DNA of 57,454 bases from Nitrososphaerota archaeon (GTDB lineage: Archaea > Thermoproteota > Nitrososphaeria > Nitrososphaerales > Nitrosopumilaceae), in contig VHBK01000004.1 of the NCBI GenBank assembly GCA_016872015.1, forward strand, positions 1-57,454, given 5' to 3'. The notes beneath the pieces were generated by a model that worked only from the letters and a program-made list of their open reading frames with translations, searched no databases and was not told the origin of the DNA. The translations under genes were made by a program, and so were the position numbers. This document shows positions 13,493 to 56,258 of the stretch, piece after piece (the first letter of the stretch is position 1; the number at the start of each line of letters is the position of its first letter).

Positions 13493-13602
13493 TTGTCATT
13501 TTTGGAGATACATCGAATAAATACCAAGCTGATCATATACAAGCAAGGAAACTAGATCATACATAGAAAATCCAAATATACTTGCAGATTACAACCTGTT
13601 TG

Positions 13603-15180
13603 ATGTCTACTGAGGCTAAGAGGCTTGAGGTTTCTGGCACAGCACCATTTAAGCAATCAGGCGTCTACGAGGTCCAAGTTTCTATCTGTGATTCAGCACC
13701 GTCTACAGAAGAAATTGTCTCAAAGCGTTTTCCATCCCTGTGGCAAGAGCATTACCACTTGCATGTCAAGGACACAAAATTCACACAAACCCTTGGCTCT
13801 GATACTAATCCTATTCCAGATTCTGTTTTTGGTTTATCTACAATTTGGATTATCGTAAGCGATCAATTCTCATCATTACATTCTATTTTTGAGGTCAGAG
13901 TTTCAGCGCCGGAAAGTTTTGCACCTGCGGAAACACCAGAAATACCTGCACCAAGACGCAAACGCGAAGTAGAAACTCCAGAGGAGCGAGCTCCTAGAGG
14001 TGAGCGCGGATTGCGTGGCTCACCTGGATTACAAGGCGACAAGGGTCCGACAGGACCGATGGGTCAGCAAGGCGAACGCGGGCCATTGGGTCCACCAGGT
14101 CCAGTTGGAGTTCAGGGCGACAAAGGCCCGATGGGTCCAATGGGTCCGACAGGCCAACAAGGCGAGAAAGGACCGGTAGGCCCTCAAGGAGACAAAGGCG
14201 ATAGGGGCTCAACAGGCCCGTCCGGCGACAAAGGTGAAAAAGGTGACAAGGGACTTACTGGCGATAAAGGAGACAAGGGAGACAAAGGCCCACCAGGTGA
14301 TAAGGGAGACAAAGGTGACAAGGGACTTACTGGCGATAAAGGAGACAAGGGAGACAAAGGCCCACCAGGCCCCCCGGGAGATAAGGGAGAAAAAGGACCA
14401 CTAGGTCCATCTGGCGATAAAGGAGTAACGGGACCGATTGGTCCGCAAGGAGAAAAAGGCCCAACTGGAATTCAAGGCCAGCCGGGTGACAAGGGTGTCA
14501 TGGGTCCACCTGGTCCACAAGGCGAGAAAGGCCCTACAGGCCCTGCAGGCCCACCAGGCGACAAAGGAATTCAAGGTCCAATTGGTGAGCGAGGCACAAG
14601 AGGCCCACAAGGCCCCGCAGGCGACAAAGGACCACTAGGCCCACCAGGCCCACCAGGCGACAAAGGTCCAAAAGGCATTCAAGGTGAAGTTGGCGATAAA
14701 GGCCCGCAAGGCCCACAAGGTCCTGCGGGAGAAAAAGGATTAACTGGAGTTCCGGGTCCACAAGGCGAGCGAGGCCCGCGAGGCCCGCAAGGCCCACCGG
14801 GAGAAAAAGGACTCACGGGTCCAACAGGCCCACCAGGCGACAAAGGAACATCTGGACCACAAGGCCCACAAGGTGAGCCAGGCCCACAAGGACTGGCAGG
14901 CGAGCGAGGCCCGCAAGGCCCACAAGGAATTCAGGGTCAGCAAGGCGAGCGAGGCCCAGCAGGACAACGCGGTCCTTCAGGCGACAAGGGTCCTATGGGT
15001 CCACAGGGTCCTTCAGGTGACAAGGGTCCAAGAGGCCCACCAGGCCCACCAGGTCCACTAGGAGCAACTGGAATGTCGGATGAGCAAAAAGCATTATTCA
15101 AGGAGCTACTCGAGGTTCTAACTGCCAAAAACATCATTTCCACTGAAGAGCAGATAAAACTGATGAGCTATCTGTACTAG
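13603..15180 (+). CDS. Collagen-like protein with 119 uninterrupted Gly-X-Y triplets
   Basis: A 525-residue protein starting at ATG 13603 (an upstream TTG at 13582 is less likely). Residues 1 to about 110 form a beta-rich domain ([18 protein letters not shown], then [13 protein letters not shown]), followed by a Pro/Glu/Arg-rich linker. Residues about 133-489 are an unbroken collagen triple-helix repeat rich in GDKG, GEKG, GPQ and GPP triplets. The last 36 residues ([19 protein letters not shown]) form a helix that may trimerise. There is no signal peptide, so export is not evident. A 94-residue partner gene starts two bases after the stop. Lys/Asp charge pairs may replace hydroxyproline in stabilising the helix. 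Confidence 0.9.
14239..14369 (+). repeat. 59-base direct repeat inside the collagen-like gene
   Basis: Bases 14239-14297 recur at 14311-14369 without change as far as I can read, with a period of 72 bases, that is 24 residues or eight Gly-X-Y triplets (containing [16 protein letters not shown]). It is a recent in-frame duplication and shows how the triplet array can lengthen. Confidence 0.85.
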
Positions 15181-15181
15181 T

Positions 15182-15466
15182 ATGAGCGAATCAAAAAACA
15201 AAATTGATTTTAAAATGCTTGACTATGAGCGAGTCGGCGGGGATTTTGTTGCATTCAAGCTAGAAGATGGCGCCCTAGTCAAAGTCAAAGTTGATCTGGA
15301 TCGAGTAGGAATTGCACTGAATCATAAAAATCCTGATGGCACACCACACTATGCAATTAATACGTCTGTCAAAATCTCAATCATCCCAAATGATAGAAAA
15401 TTCTCAGTAGAAAAGAATCTCAAGGACAAACAAGCACCACCACCGCCAAGTCAAATGTTTAGTTGA
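15182..15466 (+). CDS. Small partner protein of the collagen-like protein, unknown function
   Basis: A 94-residue cytoplasmic protein. It starts two bases after the collagen-like gene's stop, so it is almost certainly co-transcribed. The centre (VGGDFVAFKLEDGALVKVKVDLDRVGIA) suggests a small beta-barrel; the C-terminus is a proline run (QAPPPPSQMF). No signal peptide or cysteine is present. The family is not recognised. Tight coupling suggests that it binds, caps or stoichiometrically accompanies the collagen-like protein. Confidence 0.8.
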   Translation: MSESKNKIDFKMLDYERVGGDFVAFKLEDGALVKVKVDLDRVGIALNHKNPDGTPHYAINTSVKISIIPNDRKFSVEKNLKDKQAPPPPSQMFS

Positions 15467-15515: not shown

Positions 15516-15617
15516 TTATCGTCGTTTCTTTGCTGCCTTCTTCTTTGGAGCTTTTCGCTTTGCTGCTTTTCTTTTTGGAGCTGCCTTTCGCTTAGCTGCT
15601 TTACGTTTAGTAGCCAT
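15516..15617 (-). CDS. 33-residue Lys/Arg/Ala protein, histone-H1-tail-like
   Basis: A short gene reading MATKRKAAKRKAAPKRK at its start and ending KAAKKRR. Of 33 residues about half are Lys or Arg; the rest are mostly Ala with two Pro. The composition matches H1 C-terminal tails and bacterial AlgP/Hc1-like tails, so DNA or RNA binding is likely by charge alone. Codon choice varies between copies of the repeat, as in a protein under selection rather than a simple DNA repeat. A TATA-like TATTACTATAG lies upstream on its strand. It faces the collagen operon across the stem-loop at 15483-15506. Confidence 0.75.
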   Translation of the reverse strand: MATKRKAAKRKAAPKRKAAKRKAPKKKAAKKRR

Positions 15618-49359: not shown

Positions 49360-51498
49360 TTGCAACTAAAATCACTCACAGTTTTGATGGCGTTACTAGT
49401 TGGTAGCATGGTTGTATCTCCAGCATTTGCTGCAGTTACACCATCGACCCAAAATGTCCAAAACATTGCAAAATCTGGCGACTTTGTAACCCTGATGGGC
49501 GAAGGAATCGATCCAGACGATGACTCACTTACAATCTCTTGGGCCCAAGTCGGCGGTGAGGAAGTCGAGCTTACCCCATCAAACACAGTTGCAGAGCCAA
49601 CCTTCAAAGCACCAGAAGTAGAAAATGGCAAAGTCAAAATCTTAACCTTTGAATTAACCGTAGAAGATCCTTATGGAGAAATTGATACTGATTTAGTTAA
49701 AGTCACTATTTTACCAAGAAACCAACCACCTACTGCTGACGCAGGATCTGACCAAACAGTGGAAAAAGGCGACGAAGTCACACTTGACGGCTCTGGTTCT
49801 GACCCAGACGGTGATGCACTCACATACCACTGGTCACAAATCGATGGCCCAGTAATAGAACTGGATGACCCTTCATCACAAACACCAAGCTTTGACACCT
49901 CAAGCGTAACTAGAAGCACCGGCATTTTCAGATTCCAATTAACTGTGTTTGACGGCTTTGGAGGAATTACCAAAGACACCATGATAGTAAAAATGACTGC
50001 AGGCAAACCAACACTAATTTCTGCAGCTGCAGGTCCTGACCAAATTGTAGATGAAGGTGATACTGTACAGCTAGAAGGAACATGCGATGACAAACTGGAC
50101 AGAGAACTAACATATTCTTGGGTACAAACACTAGGTCCATTTGTGGAATTGTCTGCCAATGGTGACCCAGACCCAACATTTGTAGCACCAGAAATTCCAA
50201 ACGGCCAAATCGTTCCAACAGCATTTAGATTTACATGTCAAGCAGACGGTGGAGGAACAGCAACCGACGTTGTAATTGTTAGAGTCCGACCAGTCAACGA
50301 TGATCCACTCGCAGATGCAGGACCAGACAAGAACACAATATCAAACAGATTTGTATACTTGACAGGTTCAGGTTCTGACCCAGACGGAGATATCATCAAA
50401 TATTCCTGGAAACAAGTCGACGGCGAAGATGTGGTAGTTGCATACCCGACAAAGGGTGAAGCAAGATTCAAGGCACCAGAAGTTTCAGGCGGTGCATCAA
50501 CTGAATTAACATTTGAATTAACAGTTACTGACCCATACGGCGGCGAAGACAGCGACACCGTAACAGTAACAGTAGTATCCGATAACGTAAGAGCATCTGC
50601 TGATGCAGGTGCAGACCAAGTAGTAGACGAGCAGACCGAAGTCACACTCGCAGGCTCTGGCACTGACCCAGATAGTGAAGAGATTTCGTTTGCTTGGAAA
50701 CAAGTAGGTGGCGAGGCAGTCGAGCTATCTGACACTGAAGGAGCAGAGCCAACATTTACTGCACCTATAGTTGCAAACGGCAAAGTCAAGATACTAGTCT
50801 TTGAGCTACGAGTAGCAGATGAAAATGGCTTCCCAACCAAAGACATCACAAAAGTCACAGTATTACCAGTAAACACCCCACCAGTAGTTGATGCAGGCGA
50901 AGACCAAGAAGTAGACATTGGTGCTACGGTCTCACTTGCAGGAACTGCATCTGATGAAGATGAAGAACCACTAACATACTTGTGGAACCAAATCTCGGGC
51001 CCAGCAGTCGAACTATCAACTAGCACAGAACTAGAGACAGCATTTGTCGCTCCAAAGACCGAAGTTGACACTGTCATCACATTCCAGTTGATTGCAAACG
51101 ACAGCTCTGAAGACAGCGAACCAGACACAGTAGATATTACAGTTAAAGGAACACTAGCAAAGGCAATGACTGCATATGCAGGCAAAGACCAGCGAGTACC
51201 AGAACACTCTGAGGTAACACTCTTTGGCTCTGGCAAAGACCCACTAAAGAACAAACTCTCCTACAACTGGAGACAAGTCTCTGGTGAGCAAGTAGAACTC
51301 TCTGCAAGTGATATTGCCAAGCCATCATTCACCGCACCAGAAGTTGCAAACGGTGAAACAAAGACACTAGTCTTTAAAATCACAGTCAGCGACGGAACTG
51401 GCAGAAGTGCAAAGGACACTGTATCGGTAATCGTAGAGCCAATCAACGGCGCACCAACTGCAATTGCCAAAGTAAAGACAGTGCGAGAAGCAGTATAA
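49360..51498 (+). CDS. Secreted protein with seven PKD-type repeats
   Basis: A 712-residue acidic exported protein. A signal peptide (LTVLMALLVGSMVVSPAFAA) is followed by seven PKD/REJ-like beta-sandwich repeats of about 95 residues. Each has a form of ADAGxDQxVxxGxxVTLxG, SxDPDxDxLTYxWxQ and FELTVxDxxG (clear examples at residues about 120 and 405). After repeat seven, NGAPTAIAKVK looks like the first residues of an eighth that ends at once. There is no membrane anchor. It is probably a cell-surface or S-layer-associated protein. Start TTG at 49360. Confidence 0.87.
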   Translation: MQLKSLTVLMALLVGSMVVSPAFAAVTPSTQNVQNIAKSGDFVTLMGEGIDPDDDSLTISWAQVGGEEVELTPSNTVAEPTFKAPEVENGKVKILTFELTVEDPYGEIDTDLVKVTILPRNQPPTADAGSDQTVEKGDEVTLDGSGSDPDGDALTYHWSQIDGPVIELDDPSSQTPSFDTSSVTRSTGIFRFQLTVFDGFGGITKDTMIVKMTAGKPTLISAAAGPDQIVDEGDTVQLEGTCDDKLDRELTYSWVQTLGPFVELSANGDPDPTFVAPEIPNGQIVPTAFRFTCQADGGGTATDVVIVRVRPVNDDPLADAGPDKNTISNRFVYLTGSGSDPDGDIIKYSWKQVDGEDVVVAYPTKGEARFKAPEVSGGASTELTFELTVTDPYGGEDSDTVTVTVVSDNVRASADAGADQVVDEQTEVTLAGSGTDPDSEEISFAWKQVGGEAVELSDTEGAEPTFTAPIVANGKVKILVFELRVADENGFPTKDITKVTVLPVNTPPVVDAGEDQEVDIGATVSLAGTASDEDEEPLTYLWNQISGPAVELSTSTELETAFVAPKTEVDTVITFQLIANDSSEDSEPDTVDITVKGTLAKAMTAYAGKDQRVPEHSEVTLFGSGKDPLKNKLSYNWRQVSGEQVELSASDIAKPSFTAPEVANGETKTLVFKITVSDGTGRSAKDTVSVIVEPINGAPTAIAKVKTVREAV

Positions 51499-53249: not shown

Positions 53250-56200
53250 ATGACTAATTTCGGCACTCTAGAATATGTACTGGACAAATTCTCTGGCACG
53301 TGGAGCTGGAAGGTAACAGGCGAGCGAGCAGTCGCCATGGTATCCAGAATAATTCCCCAGGCCTGGTATGGCGACGGTGAATACGAGGCAATTGTTCCAG
53401 ACGATCCAAAAAACGTCGCACAAATCAAATGGATTATGGACAGATACCCACTAGAAATATTATCAAAGAATGTATGGCAGAAAAAACTCCCCCCGTCTGC
53501 CAAAGTAATTCCAAAAAAACCAAAAAAGACGGAACGATTACAATTGGCAAACCCAGGCAAGCAATTCAAGGGGAACTTGCTTAATTTTCAGCGAGAGGGC
53601 CTTGACTTTTTACTAAAGTCAGCTGGAAACGCGCTACTTGCAGACGAAATGGGTTTGGGCAAGTGTGTTTTGGGTGATTCTGTAATAGAGACTGGCTCTG
53701 GACCGATTCAAATTCAACAATTATGGAATGATTCCGCAATCACTGAACAAGACGGCAACGAATCATGGGCAAAACTGAACAATCCAGTTAATATCCAGAC
53801 ATTTGATAGAAAGAAAATTATTTTAAAAAAAGTCGACAAAATATTCCGACAGAAAGTCGATGAAGAAATTGTAAAACTCACATTATGGGATGGCTCTGTT
53901 ATCGAGTGTACAAAACGCCACCGATTCTTGACTGTATATGGATGGAAAAAAGCAGGAGAACTGACCATACAGGATAAAGTTGCAGTCCCGTCACAAACAC
54001 TACATGTGCCAGAAAATGATTTGACTCCAGATCTGGCAGAACTCATTGCATGGCAGCTGGCAGAAGGACATGAAAGCTTTGAGGATGGCAAATATGTGCA
54101 TGGCAGGTTCTACAATTCAGATAAAGCCATTTTAAATCGCGTAACTGCGCTTGCTGCCAAACATGGGATTATTTTGCCCATGCCAAGAAAAGACAGAACC
54201 ACGTTTGTTCTGTCCACTACAAAATTACACAAATTATTCTCAAAATATGGCTATGTTTGGGGCAAAAAATCTGCTACCAAAATAATACCTCGATCTGTTT
54301 TAGAATCTTCTCTGGAATCCCAGAAAGCGTTCATCAGTGCAATCTTTGATGCAGAGGGACACGTAGGCAAAACCCACTGCGAATTTGTCACTGCAAGCAA
54401 ATCAATCGCATTTGGAATGCAAAACATGATGCGACACTTTGGCATATGGGTTCGAATACGAATTGCAATGAAAGGTGCAACAAACGGAACCAACATCAAA
54501 AGGCCATACTATGTTTGCACATTTGGAGGAAACTCTATTGAAAGATTTGTAACTAAATTCCGATTGCAGACAACAAGAAAGCAAAAAGCACTTGAGTTAC
54601 TTGCAAGAAAGACACACAACACAAACGTAGAAGGAATTCCATCTCAGCACATAGTTCGTAAAATAGCAGACAACGGAATTTCACTTCGCTCGCTGAACTT
54701 GTTTACTCCATACAAATACACGCAAGGAATGAGCAAGAACTTGGCGTACTTGGTAATTGACAGACTGGAAAAATCAAACCACCCAGAGTTGGCGTCAGAG
54801 CTGGAGCGAATTGCAGTAGAATCGATTAATTGGTGTTCAATCAAGGACATTGGCACAAGGCACTACGCTGGATTTGTCTATGATTTATCAGTTCCACAAA
54901 CCCACAACTATGTTGTAAATGGAATCATCTCACACAACACGGTCCAGTCGTTATCATATTTGGCATCCGAGCAAAATGCATTTCCGGCACTAATTGTAGC
55001 GCCTCTAGTCACACTGCAAAACTGGCAGAGGGAAATTGAAAAATTTCTGGTGCGAAAAAGCAGAAACGGCAGACTGGTGGAAAGCGAGGCCCCAACATCT
55101 ACAATAATCAGGGTTGGCAAATCCGAGGCGCTAGAAAAATATGATTTCTATATTATTAATTATGAATTATTATACAAACGATACAAAGACCTGGCAAATC
55201 TTGGCCTCAAAACCATAGTATGTGATGAGGTGCAGAACTTGCGCTCCAAGACCACGCAAAAATATCATGCAATCAAAAAACTCGCTGCACTGGAATCTGT
55301 CAAGTATAGAATTGGCCTGTCCGGCACGCCAATCTATAACAGGGGTTCAGAGATTTGGCCAATAGTGGATATTTTGCGCCCAGGACTGCTTGGCAGTTTT
55401 AAGGAATTTTGTGAGTATTTCTGTTATGTTAACGAAAAAGGAAAGGCCATCGTTTTGGAAAACAAGCGCGAGTCCCTCCGAAACATGCTCCAAAAACACG
55501 TTATGCTTAGGCGCAAAAAAACAGACGTACTATCTGAGCTCAAAGAGAAAATCCGCTACAAGGAGATAATCGACTCTGATATCAATTATTATAACAAGGA
55601 ACTAGAAAGAATCTGGAAAAAGCTGGAAGATGAGCGCAAAGAGGCGCAAACAGCGTTTGATGCGTCAACTGCATACCAGCGGGCAATCCAAAGTGAAAGA
55701 CAAGCGGCAGGGGCTGCAAAACTCCCACACGTGATAAATTTTGTCAAAAACATAATGGAAATAGAGGAAAGTGTTGTAGTATTTTGCCACCACAAATCAA
55801 TTCACACTTTGTTGCACCAGAGTCTCTCTGAGTTCAAGCCTGCATCAATCATTGGAGGCCAGACCGACAAGCAGAGGCAAGACAGTATTGACTCGTTCCA
55901 GGGCGGCCAGACAAAACTAATGATTGCGGGACTGCGTGCAGGAAACGTTGGAATCAATTTGACTCGGGCAAAATATGTGATCTTTGCGGAACTGGACTGG
56001 AGTCCTGCAATACACCTCCAGGCTGAAGACAGACTGCACAGAATAGGCCAAAAAAATACCGTGTTTGCGTATTATCTGATTGGAAACGGAACACTAGATG
56101 AGCACGTTGCACGTGTTCTAGTGGATAAAAGCTATGAAATCGATGCAATCATGGACAACAAGGTGGAATCATTTGAGAACAAGGGTAAAGCAGAACTAAT

Positions 56201-56258
56201 TTTGGCGCAAATCCAGGACAAGGTCAAGGCAATACTACAGGCTAGTCCAGCTCAGTAG
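53250..56258 (+). CDS. SNF2-family ATPase/helicase, intein-containing precursor
   Basis: A 1002-residue precursor of a SWI2/SNF2 DNA-dependent ATPase. The N-extein (1-138) has LLNFQREGLDFLLK and ends within the Walker A motif DEMGLGK. The intein (139-563) follows. The C-extein resumes TVQSLSYLASEQ, restoring GLGKT, and has VCDEVQNLRSK (motif II), GLSGTPIYNRGSEIW (III), a linker with a coiled insert, and the second RecA domain with RAGNVGINLTRA and AEDRLHRIGQ (V and VI). The mature protein is about 577 residues, a compact type without extra domains. It likely remodels protein-DNA complexes or assists repair. Confidence 0.95.
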   Translation: MTNFGTLEYVLDKFSGTWSWKVTGERAVAMVSRIIPQAWYGDGEYEAIVPDDPKNVAQIKWIMDRYPLEILSKNVWQKKLPPSAKVIPKKPKKTERLQLANPGKQFKGNLLNFQREGLDFLLKSAGNALLADEMGLGKCVLGDSVIETGSGPIQIQQLWNDSAITEQDGNESWAKLNNPVNIQTFDRKKIILKKVDKIFRQKVDEEIVKLTLWDGSVIECTKRHRFLTVYGWKKAGELTIQDKVAVPSQTLHVPENDLTPDLAELIAWQLAEGHESFEDGKYVHGRFYNSDKAILNRVTALAAKHGIILPMPRKDRTTFVLSTTKLHKLFSKYGYVWGKKSATKIIPRSVLESSLESQKAFISAIFDAEGHVGKTHCEFVTASKSIAFGMQNMMRHFGIWVRIRIAMKGATNGTNIKRPYYVCTFGGNSIERFVTKFRLQTTRKQKALELLARKTHNTNVEGIPSQHIVRKIADNGISLRSLNLFTPYKYTQGMSKNLAYLVIDRLEKSNHPELASELERIAVESINWCSIKDIGTRHYAGFVYDLSVPQTHNYVVNGIISHNTVQSLSYLASEQNAFPALIVAPLVTLQNWQREIEKFLVRKSRNGRLVESEAPTSTIIRVGKSEALEKYDFYIINYELLYKRYKDLANLGLKTIVCDEVQNLRSKTTQKYHAIKKLAALESVKYRIGLSGTPIYNRGSEIWPIVDILRPGLLGSFKEFCEYFCYVNEKGKAIVLENKRESLRNMLQKHVMLRRKKTDVLSELKEKIRYKEIIDSDINYYNKELERIWKKLEDERKEAQTAFDASTAYQRAIQSERQAAGAAKLPHVINFVKNIMEIEESVVVFCHHKSIHTLLHQSLSEFKPASIIGGQTDKQRQDSIDSFQGGQTKLMIAGLRAGNVGINLTRAKYVIFAELDWSPAIHLQAEDRLHRIGQKNTVFAYYLIGNGTLDEHVARVLVDKSYEIDAIMDNKVESFENKGKAELILAQIQDKVKAILQASPAQ
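53664..54938 (+). mobile_element. LAGLIDADG intein in the SNF2 Walker A motif
   Basis: A 425-residue in-frame element, residues 139-563 of the precursor. It begins with Cys in CVLGDSVIETGSG (block A), has block B SVIECTKRHRF, and ends YAGFVYDLSV...HNYVVNGIISHN with the penultimate His and last Asn; the next extein residue is Thr. Two homing-endonuclease motifs are present: LAELIAWQLAEGH (about 272) and AFISAIFDAEGHVG (about 362). Splicing residues are all present, so it should splice, and with acidic residues in both DOD motifs the endonuclease may be active. Confidence 0.95.

Follow-up and report, generated by a model that had tools for sequence, protein, structure and literature searches.

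Collagen is usually regarded as extracellular material, and the collagen-like proteins known from prokaryotes are mostly located at the surface. In the streptococcal adhesins Scl1/SclA (NF038330) and Scl2/SclB (NF038329), a long Gly-X-Y rod stands between two non-collagen parts. Repeats of the same kind are found in the Lcl collagen-like adhesin (NF046116) and in the collagen-like tail fibres of phages (PHROGs 6320, 5073 and 1806). In the archaea, a highly transcribed protein of marine group II Euryarchaeota is annotated as collagen-like and as a cell-surface protein, according to the accessible part of PMC5069720; it belongs to another phylum than the protein described here, and the two are likened by annotation alone.

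The gene considered here lies in a stretch of 57,454 nucleotides from an archaeon of the family Nitrosopumilaceae (GenBank assembly GCA_016872015.1, contig VHBK01000004.1), all of which is called the window. Its product has the architecture of the Scl adhesins and its rod matches their models, but it carries neither a leader nor an LPXTG motif, its head and tail are orphans, and its scores fall below the curated cut-offs. Its repeats match the Lcl model at 205.4 bits, against a cut-off of 500 bits. The Gly-X-Y shaft also scores high against the phage tail-fibre families, but the archaeal head and tail have no match there when searched alone, and the gene sits among conserved chromosomal genes. 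Assignment to the Pfam family Collagen (PF01391) is supported by a score of 202.4 bits for the window protein, against a gathering score of 27.2. No description of this collagen protein was found in the open-licence literature.

The collagen gene, its rod and its caps

A preliminary description made from the letters of the DNA had reported 119 consecutive Gly-X-Y triplets, an internal duplication of 59 bases and a beta-rich head. All three were recovered (Table 1). The rod has zero breaks, and our own count rises to 120 when the boundary triplet is included; the two copies of the duplication are exact; and the head agrees with an AlphaFold2 model. When the letters of the window protein were shuffled 2000 times, the longest Gly-X-Y run averaged 4.07 triplets and reached a maximum of 10.

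Table 1. Coordinates of the collagen-like gene, its parts and its small neighbour in the window
Feature	Position	Strand	Remarks
Collagen-like protein gene	13603..15180	+	525 aa, ATG to TAG; Pfam Collagen PF01391, E 6.7e-61
Promoter-like A+T-rich element	13566..13583	+	GAAAATCCAAATATACTT in the window; ends 19 bases above the start codon
N-terminal head, residues 1-132	13603..13998	+	beta domain (about residues 1-100), then a charged proline-rich linker
Gly-X-Y rod, residues 133-489	13999..15069	+	119 uninterrupted triplets; 120 with the boundary Gly-Met-Ser, to 15078
Exact 59-base duplication, copy 1	14239..14297	+	repeat array also seen by TRF
Exact 59-base duplication, copy 2	14311..14369	+	starts 72 bases after the start of copy 1
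C-terminal tail, 35 aa	15073..15177	+	ends in SYLY; strongly conserved (alignment of 32 tails)
Small neighbour ("partner"), 94 aa	15182..15466	+	also found without collagen outside the family; absent from part of the family

Relatives also have the A+T-rich element, roughly 20 bases before the start codon, and several of them share the form GAAAAT-N2-AAA[AT]ATACTT. In a per-position tally of 105 distinct sequences, the A+T fraction is 0.93-0.97 at positions -35 to -32 and 0.91-0.98 at -27 to -23. This is a putative BRE/TATA element.

The AlphaFold2 model of the head shows a beta domain with two short helices. Its mean pLDDT is 80.8 over residues 1-116, with block means of 86-92 over residues 11-100 and of about 41-42 beyond. 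Neither cap matches a known family. For the head, no Pfam, NCBIfam or PHROG family was found at a meaningful score; when 41 head members were searched, each family that appeared was matched by only one of the 41 (best E 0.0049). Comparison of the head with PDB structures gave no confident relative (best E 0.083), the highest probability among the best 50 of 921 rows being 0.80, for SgrA (5fce) at a TM-score of 0.47. The tail has a mean column identity of 75% and six invariant columns over 32 sequences, with best E values of 0.027 against Pfam and 1.4 against the PDB.

Constraint on the rod was examined in two overlapping sets of homologous loci (54 and 80, the latter including loci of Nitrosopumilus and Nitrosarchaeum), which gave 108 complete proteins, 93 of them distinct. 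A single unbroken run of 72-185 triplets is present in 88 of the 93, with lengths clustering at 119-126 triplets (40 proteins) and at 101-104 triplets (22 proteins). The five exceptions comprise a rod of 10+22 triplets, one of 18 triplets whose frame is broken later, one that contains a run of unknown bases, one with ambiguous bases at scattered sites and one with an early stop. Nearly all complete relatives keep the rod in frame, and a Gly-X-Y region out of frame is rare among close ones. The rod of 10+22 triplets comes from a 0.8 Mb genome (G020) in which the head match is kept and the tail is similar by eye. A rod that has shrunk while both caps remain suggests that the molecule works through its two capped ends.

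Codon differences point to a strongly held frame. Between the window gene and its nearest relative, synonymous and non-synonymous differences number 46 and 0 at the Gly codons, 35 and 9 at the X codons and 29 and 9 at the Y codons; over six relatives, the Gly column shows 391 synonymous and 4 non-synonymous differences. Purifying selection on the rod is supported by comparisons of this kind. Between genera, X and Y have diverged far more than Gly, with homology still recognisable. In several pairs from distant genera, X/Y identity at the 5' end is 0.19-0.29 when compared ungapped and in register. One reading was that X and Y had turned over to background, the rod being selected for its continuity and not for its sequence, and this was ruled out by gapped alignment against triplet-shuffled rods. 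Gapped X/Y identity lies above the mean of the shuffled controls in 15 of 15 pairs: the four most distant pairs have 0.38-0.41, where the shuffled rods have 0.31-0.33, and the other eleven have 0.47-0.84, although in one of the four (L095 and L062) the value only equals the largest shuffled identity. The codon differences and the X/Y comparison together indicate that the Gly frame is the strongest constraint and that a weaker, real sequence memory persists in X and Y. Since this homology rises above that of shuffled rods even between distant genera, the rod may make sequence-specific contacts and may not be a bare spacer.

The composition of the triplets is also nonrandom. In the window protein, triplets with an acid at X and a base at Y number 38, against 14.7 +- 2.5 in shuffled rods. 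The KGD/KGE motif shows no enrichment, with 10 occurrences in the window against 10.6 +- 2.3 shuffled, and in all nine relatives compared it stays under the mean of the shuffled rods, in one of them only slightly. The hydroxylase family PF13640 is absent or below its cut-off in nine of nine genomes, which makes hydroxyproline an unlikely stabiliser of the helix. A role for the rod as a strict length ruler was considered and rejected. The length clusters follow clades, and the spread of rod lengths from 72 to 185 triplets makes a strict ruler unlikely. Cell widths of 0.15 to 0.7 um are reported for family members in the available text of PMC12097351, a range that counts against a ruler of cell width.

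Distribution, chromosomal place and the 94-residue neighbour

The preliminary description called such an uninterrupted run rare in archaea, which is not borne out as stated: nearly every member of one archaeal family has the protein, and further collagens are present there and in some other families of the order. A profile built from 41 heads found the head in 205 of 250 Nitrosopumilaceae genomes, with a single match in 201 and two matches in four. The good genomes of the family have it in 122 of 131 cases, with no match to the profile in the other nine, and it is present in 22 of 22 genera. Among 300 genomes from across the phylum, 44 were matched, 43 of them in the family; the only match elsewhere is weak and partial (G471 C1:29420-29548, 43 positions, E 7e-4). 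The tail profile was matched in 35 of 250 phylum genomes, all in Nitrosopumilaceae, and found nothing in one genome that does have the head (G189). In the genome to which the window belongs (1,306,115 bases in 64 contigs), all eight matches to collagen models fall within this single gene.

The chromosomal place of the gene is shared as well. The flanking genes, read as sulfite-reductase-like, rhodanese, TPR (Pfam), GTPase and ArgRS, are conserved across the family. Within 6 kb of the gene, a divergent TPR gene was found in 52 of 54 head loci, a rhodanese-like gene in 48 and the downstream GTPase gene in 40, with contig ends scored as misses. A shared place across loci fits vertical inheritance at one locus.

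The small gene downstream does adjoin the collagen gene as an open frame of 94 residues, but the spacing is one base (the stop ends at 15180 and the ATG begins at 15182) and not two as first described. Pairing of the two genes is common without being general. Where a complete collagen gene is followed by at least 1.5 kb of sequence, the partner is adjacent in 31 of 43 loci, 28 of these with 1-46 bases between the genes, and it is missing from the other 12, so that it is absent beside the homologues in a large minority. With the window's partner as query, matches were found in 47 of 101 genomes, 36 in the family and 11 outside it. The 55 head-bearing genomes divide into 35 with the partner and 20 without a match, some of the latter having a collagen gene that runs off the end of a contig. 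A partner profile matched 45 of 300 phylum genomes, many of them outside Nitrosopumilaceae, and matched nothing in several complete head-bearing genomes (e.g., G060, G045 and G034). In two genomes from another family of the same order (family f3; loci L097 and L100), the partner comes after the TPR gene, and no collagen gene separates the two.

The functional coupling proposed for the two genes therefore proves weak, given the loci that lack the partner and the partners found without collagen outside the family, and the distribution suggests that the coupling is mostly positional. In the simplest history, the small gene is the older of the two; the collagen gene came into being next to it, and several lineages later lost the small gene. 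The neighbour is probably this older small protein, placed in the same transcript here and at most accessory. Searches with it gave DUF6978 in Pfam at 13.7 bits, under the cut-off of 29.6, and a best E of 0.36 against PDB sequences. Its model is of low confidence (pLDDT 74.1, pTM 0.45), and the fold search with it reached a best E of 0.6.

Convergent with the partner gene, a 33-residue basic protein rich in Lys, Ala and Arg is encoded at 15516-15617 on the minus strand of the window; it has no Pfam match. Longer repeat versions of up to 140 aa are found beside the collagen gene in other genera (L095 and L151). By composition only, this protein resembles histone-H1-type tails.

A collagen without a leader and its possible role

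The absence of a signal peptide, pointed out in the preliminary description, is upheld as judged by a short upstream open frame and low N-terminal hydropathy. Of 54 loci, 35 have an in-frame stop no more than 12 codons upstream of the start, too close for a signal peptide to fit. In the window, the open frame spans 537 aa against the 525 of the protein, and reaches about 12 codons above the ATG. Within the first 40 residues of the window protein, the most hydrophobic 11-residue stretch averages 0.85 on the Kyte-Doolittle scale, and in only 3 of 134 homologues does such a stretch exceed 1.8. Hydropathy shows no clear membrane segment in any of the 134, the largest 19-residue value being 1.65 and the only one above 1.6. 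The LPXTG sorting motif is absent from all 134 homologues and from the window protein. Against the SclB model (NF038329), the window protein lacks the signal peptide, as judged by hydropathy and upstream stops, and scores 264.6 against the curated cut-off of 325; four relatives score 186.6, 224.5, 209.2 and 223.2. Membership among the adhesins was rejected for want of a leader, an LPXTG motif and a sufficient score. A name such as "LPXTG-anchored collagen-like adhesin" is unsuitable for this archaeal protein family.

The best explanation, to which we give roughly even credence, is that the protein is a trimeric collagen specific to Nitrosopumilaceae, which resides in the cytosol and serves as a spacer or strut that binds at both ends. 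Three chains would most likely coil together as a stiff rod about 100 nm long, a predicted length that follows from 120 triplets of three residues at the collagen rise of 0.286 nm per residue. The C-terminal tail may set the register and start the folding, and the N-terminal beta head and the tail may each bind something. The molecule would then hold two fixed partners rigidly apart, as a spacer or strut, inside a thin, rod-shaped cell that keeps it in the cytosol. If this is true, a leaderless collagen in nearly every member of the family would represent a new kind of intracellular stiff element and a concrete candidate for how ammonia-oxidizing archaea hold their shape or space their inner structures. 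It would also offer an archaeal source of long collagen rods.

A more specific proposal is that this collagen is cytoskeletal, an internal strut that helps give the archaeal clade its slender rod shape; we regard it as distinctly unlikely. The distribution of the protein matches a clade called rod-shaped AOA in the accessible part of PMC7554672, and Nitrososphaera viennensis, which lies outside that clade, is described as irregular cocci in the available portion of PMC4129164. An actin-type shape protein was also considered and set aside. The MreB_Mbl model gave 10 matches in nine of nine genomes, all in frames of 610-681 aa; the match in G060 reads as DnaK, and the others are probably the same, judging from their length.

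Adhesion has been discussed for prokaryotic collagen-like proteins (PMC8968730, in the part accessible), and in Ca. Nitrosotenuis chungbukensis MY2, a strain that carries this gene, "LPXTG-anchored collagen-like adhesins" are reported to be highly expressed at low salinity, with one of them detected in the proteome (PMC13037477, from the available text). Both reports would favour a fibre or adhesin of the cell surface, lying on the S-layer or beneath it and exported without a cleavable leader in the manner of the bacterial collagen adhesins. This we find conceivable but rather unlikely, since leader, membrane segment and LPXTG motif are all missing and the MY2 homologue scores 186.6 bits against the 325-bit adhesin cut-off. 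Further collagen frames lie at two ends of contigs in MY2, and one of them has a hydrophobic leader; the adhesin of PMC13037477, as far as the available text describes it, is more likely to be that gene, and its identity with the present protein is unlikely. A domesticated virus tail fibre kept as a cell component, with the head as anchor, the collagen as shaft and the tail as trimeriser, draws on the PHROG search, where the best matches of the whole protein are tail-fibre families, and on a Foldseek search of the head against the viral models of BFVD, where the best matches are mostly phage proteins. Those viral models include no confident relative of the head (best E 4.6e-3), and TM-scores by query length are at most 0.50 among the best 50 of 555 viral rows. 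The PHROG matches, for the best 25 of 45, have their best stretches within residues 125-504, which is the collagen part and its edges, and the head and tail alone reach only E 0.18 and 0.089. The neighbours look like ordinary chromosomal genes and not virion genes. With unrelated terminal domains and a locus that is not among virion genes, the protein does not belong with the phage tail fibres, and we consider descent from one very unlikely.

Frequent adjacency and the high conservation of the partner (79% mean column identity over 32 rows) could be taken to mean that the collagen and its neighbour form one obligate complex. This is improbable given the 12 of 43 loci and the 20 of 55 head genomes without the partner (some of the latter from broken contigs), and the failure of the profile to find it in several complete head-bearing genomes. 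In addition, none of the 11 out-of-family genomes with the partner has a head match, and partner presence changes at least nine times on a quick tree with several long branches, whose 91 rows include 80 that were scored (48 with the partner and 32 without it). It could also be supposed that this is a low-constraint repeat protein of no structural role, retained by chance, as the internal duplications and the extensive X/Y divergence between genera might suggest; such a reading is already against the data and extremely improbable, given the invariance of Gly alongside many synonymous changes, the few interruptions, the conserved caps and the near-universal presence.

Other collagens of these archaea and other features of the window

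The leader-bearing collagens of the same archaea likewise contain Gly-X-Y runs and occur in the same family, but they differ from the strut candidate in having a hydrophobic leader and other terminal parts, and they are not present in every genome searched. Six other collagen frames of Nitrosopumilaceae were read, a subset of the collagen-model matches from which a DnaK tail, an antisense frame and a locus with no frame passing the filter (L195) were set aside. To the eye, the N-terminus is hydrophobic in five of these, and the remaining one is truncated by the end of its contig. Two of the six sit at two contig ends in MY2 and may be parts of a single gene. In two other families of the order, all five collagen loci retrieved likewise have a hydrophobic N-terminus. 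A giant example, L190 (G008 C1, minus strand), comes from a relative in the same genus; its single open frame of 2518 residues has a hydrophobic leader and 559 Gly-X-Y triplets in an unbroken run. Ends resembling those of L190 are found at the two contig ends in MY2 (L188 and L189).

Elsewhere in the window, a SNF2-type helicase at 53250-56258 (plus strand) is split by a LAGLIDADG-bearing intein directly after its ...DEMGLGK motif, with Pfam matches to SNF2-rel_dom, Intein_splicing, Helicase_C and LAGLIDADG_3. At 49360-51498 (plus strand), a protein of 712 residues carries seven PKD-type repeats and a start that is hydrophobic by eye; it is likely a surface protein.
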